Positions 54,395 through 64,000 of a DNA stretch of 64,000 nt are shown one piece after another; position 1 is the first letter of the stretch, and each line of letters opens with the position of its first letter. Under the pieces are notes generated by a model. It was not told the DNA's origin, did no database searches, and saw only the letters and a program-made list of their open reading frames with translations. The DNA is from Chloroflexota bacterium (GTDB taxonomy: Bacteria > Chloroflexota > Anaerolineae > Anaerolineales > UBA11579), in the NCBI GenBank assembly GCA_018662365.1, contig JABJGH010000022.1:1-64000 (forward strand). The letters run 5' to 3'. A program made the translations under genes and the position numbers.

Positions 54395-55585
54395 TCAGTT
54401 AGCAGAAAAAATTAATGTGTCTTCGTGGAAATCTTTCCATCCGAACCAGAACGAAGAGGTGCTTTTTATTCTCTCAAGCCTCTTTCCAGCTAATTCGCCT
54501 TCAATTGCAAGCCCATTTATCCCATCCCATAATGAACCTGTTTCATTGTCTTTAATTGTGAGCCCATCTGCAACCGCAAAGGTCAATTTTTGACCATCTA
54601 AAACTGGATTGTAAGCCACACCCAATGCAGATTCTGCATTAAAGACAACGAGAATATTATCTTCTCCAATCTCATAGTTCACTACCGGTTCTAAGGACAA
54701 TTGTGAAAACGGAAATGCAACGGATACTTTATCCAACTCCACTCCTAAAACAAATTCTTTTGTTTCTAATCGGTCGTCAATGTATTGCGGTCCAATTACG
54801 CCCCCTTGATTATTTTCATAATAGCTGGAATATGGATCTTTTTCTCCATAATGCCCTTTTTTCAATGCCAGCGAATCGGGGTGCAGGCTTTTCCATTCTT
54901 CCCAAGTAGTTTGGAAAGAAGGCAAATATTCCAATTTTGTGCCAATTAATTTTCCTTGAACGGCTTCGCCAAGCAATTGGCTCCAAAGCGTATCTGTTTG
55001 GCGATCATACATAACAAGTACGTTTCTGATCAATTTGCCACTAACGCCAAAATCATACTCTTCGCCATTAATATTTCGGGAATACACGATTCCCGTAAAG
55101 CAAAGAGGTCACCACGTTATCGCAATTTTCTTCCCTCCAACATCGTCGTTCACAATTTCATGTCTTGAAAGGAAGTTTATTGAATACGCCCTTGCTTCAC
55201 CATTGAAAACTACACCAATGACAAGCTCAAGTGGGTCATATTCGGAATCCGCCTCAGAAGGAGATAAAAACTTTGGATTGTTGATTGCAGGAATTGCATC
55301 GAAGGGCAACAAGGTAATTATTTTGTACTCTCCATATTTGGCCAACAGTTTTGGGTCCGGAAGGTCGGGTGCTTCAGTGGGTGGTTCGTCATTCGGCATT
55401 TTTAAACTTTCTAGATCTTCACCGTTATTTGAATTATTCAAATTTTCACTATTGGATTTATCAGTTTCCTCTATTGAATTGTCCGATTGAGAATTCCCAG
55501 ATGAAACAATATTGCTGGTACAGGCAACCAAAAGTAGGTTGATGAGAAATATAAGTGTGAAAAATTTTATATGGGTTTTGTTCAT
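54395..55585 (-). CDS. DUF3179 lipoprotein, candidate selenoprotein (in-frame UGA as Sec at residue 159)
   Basis: One 396-codon frame interrupted only by a UGA at 55111-55109. Upstream, residues 1-158 carry a lipoprotein signal (lipobox LLVAC) and GEARAYSINFLSRHEIVNDDVGG. Downstream come PLCFTGIVYSRN, FGVSGKLIRNVLVMYDRQT and TTWEEWKSLHP, all DUF3179 blocks. In this family the block reads CPLC; here the first Cys position is the UGA, giving ITW-U-PLC. A 7-bp hairpin lies at the right distance (see 55077-55095). GGAGG precedes the ATG. It is last in an operon with a DsbA-like protein and DUF1684. Function of DUF3179 is unknown. A pseudogene is the alternative. Confidence 0.8.
55077..55095 (-). 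promoter_or_regulatory. Bacterial SECIS-like hairpin in the DUF3179 coding region
   Basis: In the mRNA a perfect 7-bp stem (CGGGAAU/AUUCCCG) with loop CGUGU begins 13 bases after the UGA; the loop is 20 bases from it and has G in its second position. Published bacterial SECIS rules ask for such a loop G and a spacing of about 16-37 bases. Confidence 0.7.
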
Positions 55586-55599
55586 TAATGCCTCCGGTA

Positions 55600-56103
55600 T
55601 TATTTGAAATTCTTTTCGCCTGCCTCAATCGCTACGGAAAGCCGATTTTCAGAGGGGGGTAAGGGGCAAGAATAATTTTCGTTGTAAGCACAATAAGGGT
55701 TGTATGCTTGATTAAAATCTATTTCTAATTGTCCGTTATCCAATAAGGGAGGATCCAAATATCTTCCTGCGCCATAAGTTACTTTTCCTCCATTTTTATC
55801 AACGAAGGGAATAAAATAACCATGGTGACTTTGATAAACAGTGAGTTCAGCCAACTCATCCTTCACTGTAAAATGGATTTTTCCGGCCTTGACATAATCT
55901 TGAACGTCACCGGTAGATGTTTGCATTTTGATGCTTTCTTTTGTTTCAAATTCTTCAATTTTAAGTTCAAGTCTAAGCTCATTGTTTTCAGGAAAATAAT
56001 TCAATCCATCAAAGGAACTTTTTTGTTCGGCTGTTAAGGGGCTGTGCTGATCAGTTTCAAAGAATAAATCTTTTTGATTGCGAAAGGTTTCAAGTTGAGT
56101 CAT
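55600..56103 (-). CDS. DUF1684 protein
   Basis: A 167-residue DUF1684 protein. The family's closing block is visible as FNQAYNPYCAYNENYSCPLP followed by ENRLSVAIEAGEK, with conserved cysteines. GGKVTYGAGRYLDPP precedes it. Function is unknown. It lies 14 bases upstream of the DUF3179 gene and 13 bases downstream of the DsbA-like gene, so it is part of the same redox-flavoured operon. Confidence 0.85.
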   Translation of the reverse strand: MTQLETFRNQKDLFFETDQHSPLTAEQKSSFDGLNYFPENNELRLELKIEEFETKESIKMQTSTGDVQDYVKAGKIHFTVKDELAELTVYQSHHGYFIPFVDKNGGKVTYGAGRYLDPPLLDNGQLEIDFNQAYNPYCAYNENYSCPLPPSENRLSVAIEAGEKNFK

Positions 56104-56116
56104 TTTTTCTCCGTAA

Positions 56117-56734
56117 TTAATTTTGTAAGCTTTCTAATTCAGAATTTATAGCAGTTATGATTGCGCTGGGGTTTGCTCCAATTAAGGAAAATCCATTAAC
56201 TAAAAATGCAGGTGTTCCTCTTAATCCTAATGCTCTAGCAGCCTGTAAGTCAAAATCCACAGTATCCTTATGTTGATTACTATCAAGGCATTGTTCAAAG
56301 ATGGAAACATCTAAATTTGATTTTTCAGCATAAGCCAAAAGGTCTTTTTGGGAAAGTGCCGAGTAATTTTCACGCTCAAAGGTTGCATCATGAAATTCCC
56401 AAAATTTTCCTTGATCTAAAGCGCATTGGCCTGCCTCTGCGGCCTTAGGGGAATACGATGTGATAACTGGGAAATCTTTCCATTCGAATTTGACTTGCCC
56501 GTCAAACGTGGATAATATTTCTTGAATAATACCTGCCTCATGCCAAGATTGACATGCTTCACATCCAAAGTCACCAAATTCTGTTAAAGTGACCACCGTA
56601 TTTTGATTTCCTTTATACGGATTTTCATTTAACCTTTCAAGAGAATTTGCAACAGGTTTTGGGGCTGTAATAATATTATGTTTCCTGCGCAATCTTTCTC
56701 GTTGAGTTAATTGCTTGTTGTTGCGAGAGGGCAT
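56117..56734 (-). CDS. DsbA-like thiol-disulfide oxidoreductase (Thioredoxin_4)
   Basis: A 205-residue thioredoxin-fold protein with the helical insertion of the DsbA type. The redox pair is in FGDFGCEACQSW (Cys58, Cys61), and the cis-proline turn is GLRGTPAFLVNG. No clear signal peptide is seen; the first 25 residues are basic and polar, so it may be cytoplasmic or tethered. It heads the DUF1684-DUF3179 group and may reduce or oxidise a partner there. Confidence 0.87.
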   Translation of the reverse strand: MPSRNNKQLTQRERLRRKHNIITAPKPVANSLERLNENPYKGNQNTVVTLTEFGDFGCEACQSWHEAGIIQEILSTFDGQVKFEWKDFPVITSYSPKAAEAGQCALDQGKFWEFHDATFERENYSALSQKDLLAYAEKSNLDVSIFEQCLDSNQHKDTVDFDLQAARALGLRGTPAFLVNGFSLIGANPSAIITAINSELESLQN

Positions 56735-56806: not shown

Positions 56807-57825
56807 TTAAAAATTTTTTGGAATCAAGATATTAAGGATTAATCCGAATATAAATAACTCCCCGGCTTTTCTATTGAAATGCATTGCCCAGCCCACGTAC
56901 CACAGGGGCCAAACAGTCCATTCTTCTGGTGCTTCAAGAGGTTTTGGCTCAGAATATACCTTCCAAGTTTGTCGCAATCTTGGTGCTGCCAAAAGTGTGA
57001 GAAGTATCCAGGGTCCGGTAAATTTGAAGTAAACCAGGGCAAATATCATGAGATAAAACAAAATGAAAAAGAATTTGTTTAATACTAAAGAGTTTTTCTC
57101 TCCTAATAACACTGGGACTGATCTCACCCCCAGTGGTTTATCAGAACTTATTTTATCAATATGTTTACCCACCAACACAGAGGCTACAATCAAACCATAG
57201 GGGAGTGTTGCGAACCAAATGGCGTTGGTAATTTCCCCAGAAGAAACAAACGCCGTTCCGCCGATCATAAGGGGCGCCCCCATACCAACAGGGAAGTAAT
57301 TTCACCTAAACCAATTCTCTTTAAGATACTGGTATATCCTAAACTTAATAAAAATCCCGATACGGCAAAAAAGATTACCCAGGGACCTCTAACTGATGTT
57401 AAGTAGATCATGATCGCTGCATCGATGAGAGTAAATACGAAAGCAGATTGCAGCAAGCCCTTTGGCGTTGTCAACCCACCCAATATTGGATGAACAGAGT
57501 ATTGAGCTCTTGGGTAATCTTCTGTATCCACGCCGCTTTTTACATCCGCATAGTCATTAATCACATTATTTGCCGCATGGGCAAGAAGTAAACCAAAAAC
57601 GCTGAGAGCTGCATAAAACCAATTTATTTTACCGATTTCTGCGGCTAATAGAACCCCTATTAATCCAGATGTAAAAGTCATAGAAAATACACAGGCTCTT
57701 ATAATAACTAGCCATCTGGTGATGAAATCAGCTTTATCAATTTCTGGAACATTACAGCCATTGATTGCCATCGCCCATCGTTTAAACATTGGGAGGGGAT
57801 GTTGAGTTAAATTTACATTCTCCAT
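56807..57825 (-). pseudogene. UbiA-family prenyltransferase (MenA-like), frameshifted
   Basis: An integral membrane prenyltransferase in two frames. The first part (57825-57265) has LAHAANNVINDYADVKSGVD, with the Asp-rich diphosphate site, and ends at a stop just after TSLLVWG. The second part (57283-56807) continues as APLMIGGTAFVSS and has the second Asp site LVGKHIDKISSDKPLG. Joining across a G5 run (57284-57275) by one extra base gives an uninterrupted protein of about 340 residues. It is either a sequencing error or a real mutation; a menaquinone role fits the bc-type complex nearby. Confidence 0.75.
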
Positions 57826-58806: not shown

Positions 58807-60432
58807 ATGCTAAATATCAATGAAATCAGTTCCAAGGTTGGCGAATATTTTAAATCAGATATTGTAAATTTTGGTCGTGTAATTAATGGGGTTAGTGCTA
58901 AAAAAACCGGACTATTTACCTACTCAGTATTCCAAGACGATGGCAGGGAGATGAGAATTCACCTGCGAAAAGAATCTGACGGAAATGGAATATTATTTAT
59001 TGATGTAACAGACGTAATACATTTAAATTCTACTGCAACTGATATTGCACAAATGGCATTAGAGGGGCATTCTAAAAACCGCACAAAAAATTTTATTTTT
59101 AACAAGTATTCTGGAATTGATAAAAATGATATTGATTCCCAAATATCAAATATTTTCAATATGATCGATCATTTTAAGGTTCATTCAGGGGATTGCTACA
59201 CTTGTGGTCTCTCAAGCTCATTTGAAATGGCTCCCCTTTTTAGTTTAAATGTGAACGCACCGTTCAAGGTAGATATTGCTTTGACTTATGGATGTAATAA
59301 TAATTGCCCCCATTGTTATAACGAAGCTGATCGATTTTCACTTCAGTCTCTTGAACTTGAAAAGTGGAAAATTGTAATAGATAAAATTGTGGAGCTTGGT
59401 GTTCCACATTTGATACTCACCGGAGGGGAAGCCACTCTTCATCCGGAATTACCTGAAATTATTAATTACGCGGACAGTAGCGGAATGATCGTTGGTTTAA
59501 ATTCAAATGGGCGCTATTTGGCGCACGAATCCTACATGAATAAATTGGCCTCCTCAGGGTTAAATCATGTACAAATAACATTAGGGTCTAACCAAGAAGA
59601 AGTCCACAACGCTATGATGGGGGCTAAATCTTTCAAGCAAACTGTCAATGGTATTGAAACTGCAATCGATAGTGGCATTCACGTGATCACAAATACTACG
59701 TTAATGCGATCCAATATGGATCACGCTGAAGAAATTATCGATTTTCTTTATGATTTAGGTATTCGGACATTTGCGATGAATGGAATGATCTACTCTGGTG
59801 GTGGATTTGCGGATCCCAATGCAATTACAGAAAAAGAAATGCCCGCTTTGCTTGTTCGAGTTAGGGACCACGCACAAAGGCTAGGGATGCGCTTTCTCTG
59901 GTACACGCCCACTGAATATTGTAGGTTATCTCCAGTTGAATTAGAAATAGGAGCCAAAAGGTGCAACGCGGGGGAGTATTCGATGTGCATTGAGCCAAAT
60001 GGAGATGTGTTGCCCTGCCAATCCTATTATGTATCGGCGGGGAATATTATCAATGACCCCTGGGAAGAAATTTGGCAAGGGGAATTATTCCGAAGTTTTA
60101 GGGAACGAGGCGATCAACCTGAATTCGGAAAATTACCTGAAAAATGCTGGGAATGCCCCGATCTAGTTTTATGCGGTGGGGGATGTAGAATCGAGAGGGA
60201 AGCGCGGGACGGTGTGCGGGTTTCTGAAGACGCTGGGGGAGGATGCTCAGGATGTAGTGGAAGTTGTGGAACTGGAGGCTCCTCCAATGTTGTTCGTTCG
60301 CATAACCATACATCTGGGCTCATCAGCGGTGATGGTTATGCTCCAATAGGGAGTCAAATTAAAGACGATCTGAGAAGCACTGGTGGAAATCAATTAATTT
60401 CTAAGGACGATTTATTTTCTTTGGAAAATTAA
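58807..60432 (+). CDS. Radical SAM/SPASM protein with PqqD-like N-terminus and Cys-Gly tail
   Basis: A 541-residue radical SAM enzyme of the peptide-modifying type. The N-terminus (about 1-100) resembles a PqqD-like peptide-binding domain (VIHLNSTATDI). The radical SAM motif is YGCNNNCPHC (Cys163, 167, 170), with TGGE at 205-208. The SPASM region has CNAGEYSMC, CQSYYV and CWECPDLVLCGGGC, ligands for extra clusters. After Cys460 comes a tail GGGCSGCSGSCGTGGSSN. The partner is probably the DUF2207-like protein encoded next. The target peptide is not known. Confidence 0.85.
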   Translation: MLNINEISSKVGEYFKSDIVNFGRVINGVSAKKTGLFTYSVFQDDGREMRIHLRKESDGNGILFIDVTDVIHLNSTATDIAQMALEGHSKNRTKNFIFNKYSGIDKNDIDSQISNIFNMIDHFKVHSGDCYTCGLSSSFEMAPLFSLNVNAPFKVDIALTYGCNNNCPHCYNEADRFSLQSLELEKWKIVIDKIVELGVPHLILTGGEATLHPELPEIINYADSSGMIVGLNSNGRYLAHESYMNKLASSGLNHVQITLGSNQEEVHNAMMGAKSFKQTVNGIETAIDSGIHVITNTTLMRSNMDHAEEIIDFLYDLGIRTFAMNGMIYSGGGFADPNAITEKEMPALLVRVRDHAQRLGMRFLWYTPTEYCRLSPVELEIGAKRCNAGEYSMCIEPNGDVLPCQSYYVSAGNIINDPWEEIWQGELFRSFRERGDQPEFGKLPEKCWECPDLVLCGGGCRIEREARDGVRVSEDAGGGCSGCSGSCGTGGSSNVVRSHNHTSGLISGDGYAPIGSQIKDDLRSTGGNQLISKDDLFSLEN

Positions 60433-61506: not shown

Positions 61507-62694
61507 TTATTGTTTGGTTTTATTCCAGATCGTTCCCCAATCATCCTTCAGAATATTCCCCAACACCTGGTTCTTCCCTTGGGAGGGAAGTACATCACCG
61601 TCAGGTTCAACATAAAGCCAAGCTTTGCCAGACCCTGGTGGGGATTCGTCATTTTTTTCTATTTCTAATTCTAAAGAAACGGGATTTAATTCCGAGTAGG
61701 GCACGGGAAGATCCCAAATAAGTTCAATATCTTGATCATCAAGATAATCTCTCGCTTTTTGAAGTTCTCCAGAAAGCGTACTGTCATTTTCGCTCAAGGA
61801 GACAGCTGATACGCCAGCTTCTATTATTTTGTCAATAAGGGTTTCAATATTACTGGAATTTTCTTTTGTGAGGGTCAAATGAGCAGCAACAAATATGTCT
61901 TCTCTTAGGGTTTCTGCCCAATAGGAGAAACTTGCTAATGCTTCCCAAGAGGAGTTGCTTTCAGGATTCAGAACGATCATAGTATGATCCAATCCAGCCT
62001 GAAGTAATTTTTGCAAGTAGGAAGGATCTCCTAATTTTTTGCCATTTGTTAGTAATCCTGTGACTTGTCCATTTTTTTCTGCATGCGCTAAGAGTAAGGG
62101 AAGGTCCTCTCTTAGTGTAGGCTCTCCTCCAGTGAAAAGTAAATGAGGGATACCGTTTGCCCATGATTTATCAATTATGGATATCCATTCATCGGTAGTC
62201 AATTCTCTATCCACACATTTTGTGGGGCTAGAGCCACTAATGTCATCAGAATCTACAGTATAAGTAATTGCGCAATCTAATCTGTATGGCGCTGAAATTT
62301 CTTCTTCAGAAGAAATGTTTCTATCGAAATCTAAAGAAATCACAGGGTCTAGATCTTGAGAAGTTAATAATGTGTCAATCCTATTTTTGAATTCCTGATA
62401 ATCATTTTCAATAATTGAGGATTTGGTTTTATATCGCTTTGAAAAATGTTGGATTACTTCATAGTTAGGTAAATTATTCACTAGAAAATATGCATATTCT
62501 GTGGCAGTTTCGTTCAAGTGTAGGATGGTAGAAGCATTTACCATAAGCACACCTTTTCCAGAAGATTCTACACGGAGGTGCAATCGATAATTTAAAGGAT
62601 CATCTAACGGAGCCATATATGAATACATACCTGGCGGAAATGCCTGAGGTTTATTATTTGGAGTTCTTAAATTTTCTAACCAATTCTTAAACAT
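61507..62694 (-). CDS. Degenerate radical SAM protein lacking the cluster cysteines
   Basis: A 395-residue paralogue of the radical SAM protein at 58807. It keeps the PqqD-like N-terminus (TILHLNETATEY), the FTGGEPTLREDLP block and the SPASM-like YVEPDGDVLPSQG. The CxxxCxxC motif is gone: the site reads TYTVDSDDISGSSPTKC. The SPASM cysteines are lost (CQ became SQ) and the protein ends early. It is probably not a radical enzyme but may bind peptide. The start at 62694 follows a GGGGAGGAAG site in the upstream gene; the longer frame from 62757 is out of register with that gene. Confidence 0.8.
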   Translation of the reverse strand: MFKNWLENLRTPNNKPQAFPPGMYSYMAPLDDPLNYRLHLRVESSGKGVLMVNASTILHLNETATEYAYFLVNNLPNYEVIQHFSKRYKTKSSIIENDYQEFKNRIDTLLTSQDLDPVISLDFDRNISSEEEISAPYRLDCAITYTVDSDDISGSSPTKCVDRELTTDEWISIIDKSWANGIPHLLFTGGEPTLREDLPLLLAHAEKNGQVTGLLTNGKKLGDPSYLQKLLQAGLDHTMIVLNPESNSSWEALASFSYWAETLREDIFVAAHLTLTKENSSNIETLIDKIIEAGVSAVSLSENDSTLSGELQKARDYLDDQDIELIWDLPVPYSELNPVSLELEIEKNDESPPGSGKAWLYVEPDGDVLPSQGKNQVLGNILKDDWGTIWNKTKQ

Positions 62695-62696
62695 AA

Positions 62697-64000
62697 TTAT
62701 CTTCCTCCCCCGGCACATGCACAAGCGCAGCCCGCACAGGCACAGGCGCAAGCACATGAACTCCCTCCACCTCCACCTCCGCTTCCTCTGTAACTGCTGC
62801 TAGGCTTAGGTGGAGGGTTTGTGGTCTTTGTGATGCCATTAGTGAAATCTGTAATGTTTCCGACAACTCCAGCAGAAAACCCTTGGACGCCATTGACAAC
62901 CGAAGCGGCAAAATCTGAACCTGGAAGATTAGGCAATCCTGAGCCTCCAGGTGTTGGTTTCATTGTGGGGCCGGAAGGTTTTGATGGAGTGGATGGGCTT
63001 CTATATACAGGATCGTATCGGGGCCACCAGATGGGTGTAATAATTGGACGGTTTTGAAAAACCTCTTTGGTGCGATCATCATACTTCTTATCCAGCATCG
63101 TCCATTGCATCACATCATCGTAAATTTCACCACGCATTTCAGGAGTATCTGCCTTCTCAACTTGAGCCCAAGCTTTCTCCATTATGGACTTATAGTAGGT
63201 GACAGTTTCTCTTTTGCTAAAACCCTTCATTTTTCTCGTTACAGATTTAACAAGTTTTAACATTGTCTTCTGTAATTCTTTGCGTCTTGGCTTTTTTTGC
63301 TTCTCCATTGCTCCCAGGAAATCAACTTCATACGGTCGTAATTTTTGGGGAGGGGGATCAATTAAAGTCAGCTTTAATGGATCCTTGGTTTCAACCACTG
63401 CGGCTTCTTTTTTGATGCAAGCGAATAAGATCATCATTAGGATCTTGTCCATCGGTTGTTCCAACAGAATGCCCGCTTCTATCGCCGATAGACCCCGTTT
63501 AATCCCATGACCGGCTATTGATATTTTTGGTGGCAGATATTTTAGTTTCCTGCGTTTCGTGCTAATAATACTAATTACCGGGATTCCAATAATAAAAGCT
63601 GCGGCTCCAGCGCACATCAAAAAGCCAAGAAGATCTTCGGGATCTATGCCTAAACGCTGCCAAATGGTTGGAACAGTAATTGTGTCGGCAGGAACATAAG
63701 ATTTTGGAAATGATGCACCAAATAAATATTGAGTATGGCCATTGGCTCCCGGGTTTTCCCAAACATAAATAATTCTGCCTTGTTCATCTAAACCTGAAAA
63801 TGGTTCAGCAGAAAAACCGGAGGGTGCCTGGTGATATTTCGGCTCATCAGGAAGTACACCTTTGGGCAGGTGATACACGACGGTAAGATCCGTTTGTCCA
63901 CTAACAAAATCAGAATCAAACCAGGTTGGGGAAAAAACAGCGCTGGCATAATTGCCATCGTCTGAATCTTCGAAGAGGACATTTGTAATATTAGATATAA
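62697..64000 (-). CDS. DUF2207-like membrane protein with alternating Cys-Ala C-terminus (start outside window)
   Basis: About 433 residues are visible and the frame stays open at 64000. The order is an extracellular part (TDLTVVYHLPKG and VWENPGANGHTQYLFG), one membrane helix (LMCAGAAAFIIGIPVISII), and a cytoplasmic part with GIKRGLSAIEAGILLEQP, followed by a Pro/Ser linker. The chain ends GGGGSSCACACACAGCACAC-AGGGR: seven cysteines in a Cys-Ala alternation. The Cys and Ala codons vary, so the repeat is kept at protein level. A strong ribosome site for the dead radical SAM gene lies inside the tail. Confidence 0.8.
   Translation of the reverse strand, partial: ISNITNVLFEDSDDGNYASAVFSPTWFDSDFVSGQTDLTVVYHLPKGVLPDEPKYHQAPSGFSAEPFSGLDEQGRIIYVWENPGANGHTQYLFGASFPKSYVPADTITVPTIWQRLGIDPEDLLGFLMCAGAAAFIIGIPVISIISTKRRKLKYLPPKISIAGHGIKRGLSAIEAGILLEQPMDKILMMILFACIKKEAAVVETKDPLKLTLIDPPPQKLRPYEVDFLGAMEKQKKPRRKELQKTMLKLVKSVTRKMKGFSKRETVTYYKSIMEKAWAQVEKADTPEMRGEIYDDVMQWTMLDKKYDDRTKEVFQNRPIITPIWWPRYDPVYRSPSTPSKPSGPTMKPTPGGSGLPNLPGSDFAASVVNGVQGFSAGVVGNITDFTNGITKTTNPPPKPSSSYRGSGGGGGGSSCACACACAGCACACAGGGR

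Follow-up and report, generated by a model that had tools for sequence, protein, structure and literature searches.

The locus described here raises the question of how a single TGA inside the reading frame of a DUF3179 gene is decoded, as a stop codon or as selenocysteine (Sec), and of what kind of protein results if translation continues through it. We examined it in the window, by which we mean the whole stretch of 64,000 nt that was analysed (positions 1–64,000 of contig JABJGH010000022.1, assembly GCA_018662365.1), and in the genomes of its relatives.

Translation of the minus strand gives one frame of 396 residues, with a lone internal TGA at codon 159 and a second TGA (54397–54395) as the terminator, while the first frame of the plus strand over the same interval contains many stops and is non-coding there. 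A single match to Pfam DUF3179 (PF11376) spans the internal TGA, covering residues 96–390 and profile positions 2–292 of 292 and scoring 298.7 bits where 27 is the cut-off, and searching Pfam at a relaxed limit adds nothing of note in the protein beyond this domain. Both results agree with the preliminary description of this DNA, which had reported, without naming the strand, one frame running through one UGA with DUF3179 blocks on either side. In an ordinary list of open reading frames the gene appears as two pieces, one of 158 aa ending at 55109 and one of 230 aa starting from a GTG within the hairpin discussed below. Because standard gene calling cuts at the UGA (here at 55109), annotations probably show proteins of this kind in two separate fragments. 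The putative lipobox named earlier is also legible by eye in the translation, as LVAC behind a hydrophobic stretch, and among 80 related loci (the best 80 of 180 relatives) 40 have a lipobox-like motif when searched with a simple pattern. The coordinates of all features are collected in Table 1.

Table 1. Features of the DUF3179 locus and its upstream neighbours, in window coordinates.
Feature	Position	Strand	Basis
DUF3179 gene, predicted selenolipoprotein	54395..55585	minus	Translation; Pfam 298.7 bits across the UGA
Putative lipobox LVAC	55520..55531	minus	By-eye reading, residues 19–22
Predicted Sec UGA, first residue of the U-P-L-C dyad	55109..55111	minus	Translation, homologue alignments
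Predicted bacterial SECIS hairpin, 7-bp stem, loop CGUGU at 55084–55088	55077..55095	minus	Folding, covariation, frozen codons
N-terminal repeat, residues 113–241, with Sec/Cys dyad	54863..55249	minus	hhalign of the halves
C-terminal repeat, residues 270–393, dyad absent	54407..54778	minus	hhalign of the halves
DUF1684 gene, likely on the same transcript	55600..56103	minus	Pfam 155.3 bits; 14-base gap
DsbA-like thioredoxin-fold gene, Cys-type CEAC	56117..56734	minus	Thioredoxin_4/DSBA match

Sec machinery and the UGA column in relatives

The genome that carries the window (2.79 Mb, 94% complete) also holds selA (536.7 bits), selB (361.5 bits) and selD (364.3 bits), the last with an in-frame TGA of its own in the CAGUASK site, as well as a tRNA-Sec (72 bits, anticodon TCA). 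The preliminary description had suggested looking for selA, selB, selC and selD and had regarded a lack of Sec machinery as telling against a selenoprotein; all four genes were found, and such a lack is not the case. Among the genomes with a Sec-type DUF3179 gene, selA is present in 21 of 24, the three others (G122, G145 and G174) being 68–80% complete. This co-occurrence agrees with Sec decoding and yet discriminates little, since selA is common in the order as a whole (162 of 201 genomes).

A search for homologues in 201 genomes, comprising the genome itself and its relatives, found DUF3179 in 66 and at least one DUF3179 match with an in-frame TGA in 24, own genome included. We examined 40 of the 43 match rows that bear a TGA, leaving out the fragments G068:C118, G056:C83 and G127:C267 (the last also with a TAG), and from the rows lacking a TGA we took 30 loci and 20 lower-scoring ones (one of the 20 has an internal TAA), the rest being left out. 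In all 40 of the TGA-bearing genes examined, the window's included, the TGA stands at one same column, as U-x-x-C. These genes fall largely into three types by the sequence around the motif: type A, U-PLC-[FY]-[ST]-GIVYSR (17 rows, the window among them); type B, U-xx-C-SSGVG (8 rows); and type C, U-P[LI]C-YTGLVHDR (12 rows), with three Sec rows outside all of them. An alignment of 40 rows that includes Cys homologues has only Cys or Sec in this column, never Trp, and C162 is invariant.

A further scan of named genomes, with the part of the protein after the UGA as query, yielded 180 relatives, and we retained the best 80. The codon at the Sec column is TGA in 78 of these 80 and a Cys codon (TGT or TGC) in two, L154 and L163. 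Since 16 of the 80 loci duplicate genes of the first set, 64 are additional. The proposal that the UGA takes the place of the first Cys of a CPLC motif is borne out by this column of Cys and Sec, which answers the suggested check of homologues in the 40-row alignment and in the scan alike. Because relatives hold TGA at this one column, chance can be excluded as the source of the UGA.

The same data bear on two other readings of the codon. The UGA could be a true stop, leaving a pseudogene or a truncated lipoprotein with a downstream part that is restarted or dead, and UGA does serve as an ordinary terminator here, ending the DUF3179 gene itself and 9 of the 54 window ORFs of at least 150 aa. 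We nonetheless judge this very improbable, as the relatives examined hold the UGA at a single column, the hairpin behind it covaries (see below), and the part of the gene after the UGA is conserved and shows purifying selection (pN 0.08 and pS 0.65 between L059 and L060, for example; in comparisons with the window itself, synonymous change has mostly reached saturation). On these three grounds a pseudogene was rejected. The terminator role of UGA counts in turn against its reassignment to Trp or Cys in this organism, as do the aligned Cys in place of any Trp and the presence of a Sec system, while the identical TGA in so many of the best 80 of 180 relatives also speaks against a sequencing error. 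Code change and sequencing error were rejected accordingly, and we regard the pair of them as having only the slightest chance of being correct.

Homologues that are generally disabled, which the preliminary description would have held against its own reading, were looked for and not found, with L076 and L099 as exceptions in that each has a further TGA. In L076 a second in-frame TGA lies near TF-U-WEEG and in L099 one falls at the conserved Trp of FWFGW; either may be an error, a nonsense mutation or a second site. A different kind of change is seen in L179, which is type A-like around the motif and has Arg (CGT) at the Sec column, a loss of the dyad.

The hairpin downstream of the UGA

Thirteen bases past the UGA begins the hairpin CGGGAAU-CGUGU-AUUCCCG, with 7 bp, a loop G in second place and a minimum free energy (MFE) of −7.7 kcal/mol when folded in isolation. 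The consensus limits for the bacterial SECIS, as given in PMC13188914, are a loop of 3–9 nt, a stem of 4–16 bp, a UGA-to-loop distance of 16–37 nt and an MFE of −7.5 or lower. The window hairpin is like this consensus in every respect, with a loop of 5 nt, a stem of 7 bp, a UGA-to-loop distance of 20 nt, a G at one of the first two loop positions with U after it, and an MFE of −7.7, so the earlier reading of a 7-bp hairpin within bacterial SECIS rules holds. Across relatives the energy limit is less well kept, with 59 of 79 rows passing −7.5 and 20 of 79 missing it when the bare 19-nt hairpin only is folded.

To place the hairpin in an evolutionary setting, we aligned 79 ungapped sequences, each of 45 bases beginning with the UGA, from the window and 78 Sec loci (75 of the sequences are distinct; the Cys loci L154 and L163 were left out). 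In the 75 distinct sequences, 98.3% of the cells of stem columns 17–23 and 29–35 are paired, and changes on both sides occur in four of the seven stem pairs (44 cells). Covariation scored 0.275 where shuffling gave a mean of 0.063, and none of 500 shuffles was as high for this score, for the cells paired or for the cells changed on both sides. The remaining two of the five measures are less strong, the number of pairs changed on both sides being matched by 7 of 500 shuffles and that of further pair types by 199 of 500. Sliding the partner strand by 1–3 columns lowers the pairing to 16–56%, and in all 79 rows the first or second loop base is a G, with G or U as the next base.

Codon usage in the hairpin is frozen as well. 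Among columns with an invariant residue, a single codon is used in 4 of 6 within the hairpin vs. 0 of 69 elsewhere for type A, in 6 of 8 vs. 0 of 52 for type C and in 2 of 6 vs. 0 of 66 for type B, and the mean codon difference in type A is 0.16 in the hairpin vs. 0.61 elsewhere. The Cys family control had a single usable column and showed no effect. Compared with synonymous recodings, the structure downstream of the UGA has a z of −3.1 in the window and a mean z of −1.28 in 40 Sec genes vs. −0.01 in 31 Cys rows, which contain one gene twice (L033 and L090) (Mann-Whitney p 8e-6); individually, only 9 of the 40 Sec genes reach p<0.05.

When the hairpin alignment is used as a covariance model, this site scores 64.3 bits in its genome and the runner-up 18.4, the window being one of the 79 training rows. 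The Cys genes L163, L154 and L177 score 31.0, 27.2 and 23.1 bits, within or above the 21.4–24.8 bits of the four type C genes tested, and three type B genes tested gave no match at their own hairpin. The model is thus type-specific and no classifier of Sec and Cys genes, since some Cys genes score within or above the type C range and the type B genes tested go unmatched.

With the sel genes in the genome, the Cys/Sec column, the agreement with SECIS rules, the covariation and the frozen codons all supporting it, comparative sequence analysis makes it almost certain that the internal UGA of the DUF3179 lipoprotein is read as selenocysteine. In mechanistic terms, the hairpin would direct Sec decoding of the UGA by the genome's own SelA/SelB/SelC/SelD machinery.

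Predicted fold and possible function of the product

The AlphaFold2 model of the protein is confident and mostly beta (domain blocks mostly above 90; mean pLDDT 93.0 for the N-terminal repeat modelled alone, residues 91–250); the folds used 43 and 40 rows of the 81 available. When compared by hhalign, the halves of the domain prove to be tandem copies (probability 99.9%, E 3.4e-33), and the Sec/Cys dyad lies in the first half only, the second repeat having neither Cys nor Sec at the dyad positions. The product is pictured as a predicted lipoprotein that would be anchored in the membrane and face outward, its beta-rich domain being present in two copies, of which the first alone would carry the redox dyad Sec159-Pro-Leu-Cys162. 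In such a protein Sec159 would attack the substrate and Cys162 would resolve the Se–S intermediate.

Sec in bacteria is mostly catalytic. We infer Sec insertion, location outside the membrane and redox chemistry from sequence features, the last from the dyad motif, and consider it reasonably likely that the protein acts as an extracytoplasmic selenol/thiol oxidoreductase. The dyad might instead be a metal or metalloid site (e.g., for mercury, copper or arsenic) in what would still be a selenoprotein. CxxC also binds metals, and the fold searches bring Rieske-type domains to the top of the matches listed for both models (5bok, E 0.035, probability 0.99; 3c0d_C, E 0.058, probability 0.98). Most members of the Rieske fold hold an iron-sulfur cluster. 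The cited Rieske-type matches have TM scores of 0.53–0.62 by target length (0.62 for 5cxm) and are mixed with low-probability unrelated ones.

The signal is weak, however, as no Foldseek match reached E 0.001 with either model. Comparison with profiles of 30 Rieske domains gave a probability of 1.8% and a score of 17.33, against 17.03 for the best of 20 column-shuffled controls, and Rieske homology by profile was rejected for being barely above these. The cluster ligands C-x-H ... C-x-x-H are also absent, C162 being the sole Cys of the window's N-terminal repeat, besides Sec159. While Rieske-type domains are the best structural matches of the predicted models, these three negatives make DUF3179 Rieske-like at most, and together with the mostly catalytic use of Sec in bacteria they render the metal-site reading rather unlikely. 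A search of the PDB with the single protein returned no match, and the corresponding profile search gave two antibody chance matches only. It is conceivable, albeit improbable, that DUF3179 is a tandemly duplicated Rieske-like barrel that has degenerated, its iron-sulfur cluster loop having given way to a selenol/thiol dyad; if true, it would be a new kind of extracytoplasmic redox protein, widespread in Chloroflexota.

The oxidoreductase reading invites comparison with the DsbA/thioredoxin-like UxxC selenoproteins found in a table of PMC1088965. The UxxC dyad of the DUF3179 protein is like theirs and its predicted fold differs, being mostly beta, with no thioredoxin fold among the 50 matches listed for either fold search.

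Genomic neighbours, distribution and earlier listings of the family

Upstream of the DUF3179 gene and on the same strand lie the DUF1684 and DsbA-like genes, with gaps of 14 and 13 bases. The only NCBIfam match of the DsbA-like gene is the Rcas_1661 thioredoxin-like (seleno)lipoprotein (NF041057), at 87.7 bits and below the cut-off of 190. The DUF3179 protein is like that family in its lipoprotein setting, by name, whereas the DsbA-like neighbour, unlike the family, has Cys and scores under its cut-off. Of the earlier claim that a DsbA-like protein belongs to the operon, the adjacent position stands; a conserved partnership does not, as the gene was found beside none of 80 related loci (the best 80 of 180; flanks up to 4 kb, many contigs being shorter), and it was rejected as a conserved partner. 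It is a local candidate only for the substrate or electron donor. DUF1684 occurs in the flank of 5 of the same best 80 of 180, and when all flanking ORFs of these 80 loci were clustered, no neighbour proved to be shared: the two largest groups (58 and 30 loci) have as representatives ORFs that overlie the DUF3179 gene itself, and the other groups have at most 7 loci.

Of the best 80 of 180 relatives, 78 are labelled Chloroflexota, with the labels Anaerolineae, Caldilineae, Ardenticatenaceae, Dehalococcoidia/SAR202 or unplaced. The other two, L143 (labelled Nitrospinota) and L164 (Tectomicrobia), pair together inside type A with a support of 99 in a quick tree; their Sec genes may reflect transfer between phyla or a binning error. 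A first tree held 42 of these 80 loci (best 80 of 180), without the 16 repeats and with L079, L082 and L090 left out, and a second tree of 111 rows, enlarged by more Cys homologues, was built by a quick method, leaving out L179, L184 and L190, in which no Sec or Cys was found at the motif. The nearest tree rows of the window are Anaerolineae, which points to a Chloroflexota bacterium as the source. On the 111-row tree, which is flagged for three long terminal branches and for one place where long branches meet, the fewest Sec/Cys changes are five, in a direction that is not inferable. The Cys genes L177 and L185 stand beside type A (support 81), and L154 and L163 lie inside it. A phylum-wide search gave matches in 84 of 400 genomes; as its query starts after the UGA, this count concerns the family irrespective of Sec state. 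In genus g9, of the window's own family, neither selA nor DUF3179 was found in any of the 11 genomes searched (G009, G012 and G015–G023), which would fit a joint loss of the gene and the Sec trait.

The preliminary description knew of no DUF3179 selenoprotein, and here it needs correction, since the family is already tabled. Table rows of two reviews list it as pfam11376 with the motif UxxC/T and accession MBW1804167.1 (PMC9312934) and as PF11376 with UxxC/T and MDJ0986319.1 (PMC13188914), both crediting Zhang and Gladyshev 2007; a DUF3179 protein is also listed in an Idiomarina table. The window gene is like these tabled proteins in its Pfam family and in the UxxC position of its Sec. The rows give the family name, the motif, one accession and a citation only, and what is added beyond them here is a set of Chloroflexota members, three larger Sec subtypes, SECIS covariation, the lipoprotein form and the internal duplication. 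Among the matches listed for searches of the open-licence literature (titles and abstract starts) that combined Chloroflexi, SAR202 or Chloroflexota with selenoprotein terms, nothing concerned DUF3179, and as far as such searches reach the Chloroflexota branch is undescribed. The 2007 study reportedly dealt with an Olavius algarvensis symbiont.

We conclude that the window gene is very probably a real selenoprotein gene of an uncharacterised, already listed selenoprotein family, to which a broad Chloroflexota branch, several Sec subtypes and an internally duplicated domain that has the dyad in one of its halves are now added. What was a table entry becomes a system open to testing, namely an uncharacterised family that has both Sec and Cys forms within one phylum and offers a clear residue to mutate, and the strongly conserved SECIS can help to find more members of the window type.

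Two further observations concern the remainder of the neighbourhood. A UbiA/MenA-like prenyltransferase (56807–57825, minus strand) is split into two overlapping frames (57825–57265 and 57283–56807), each half of which matches UbiA, and this may be a frameshift, an assembly error or a pseudogene. The stretches 58807–60432 and 61507–63878 look like a peptide-modification cluster: one radical SAM/SPASM protein has a tail rich in Cys and Gly, another protein matches radical SAM more weakly, and a further one ends in a Cys-Ala-repeat tail.
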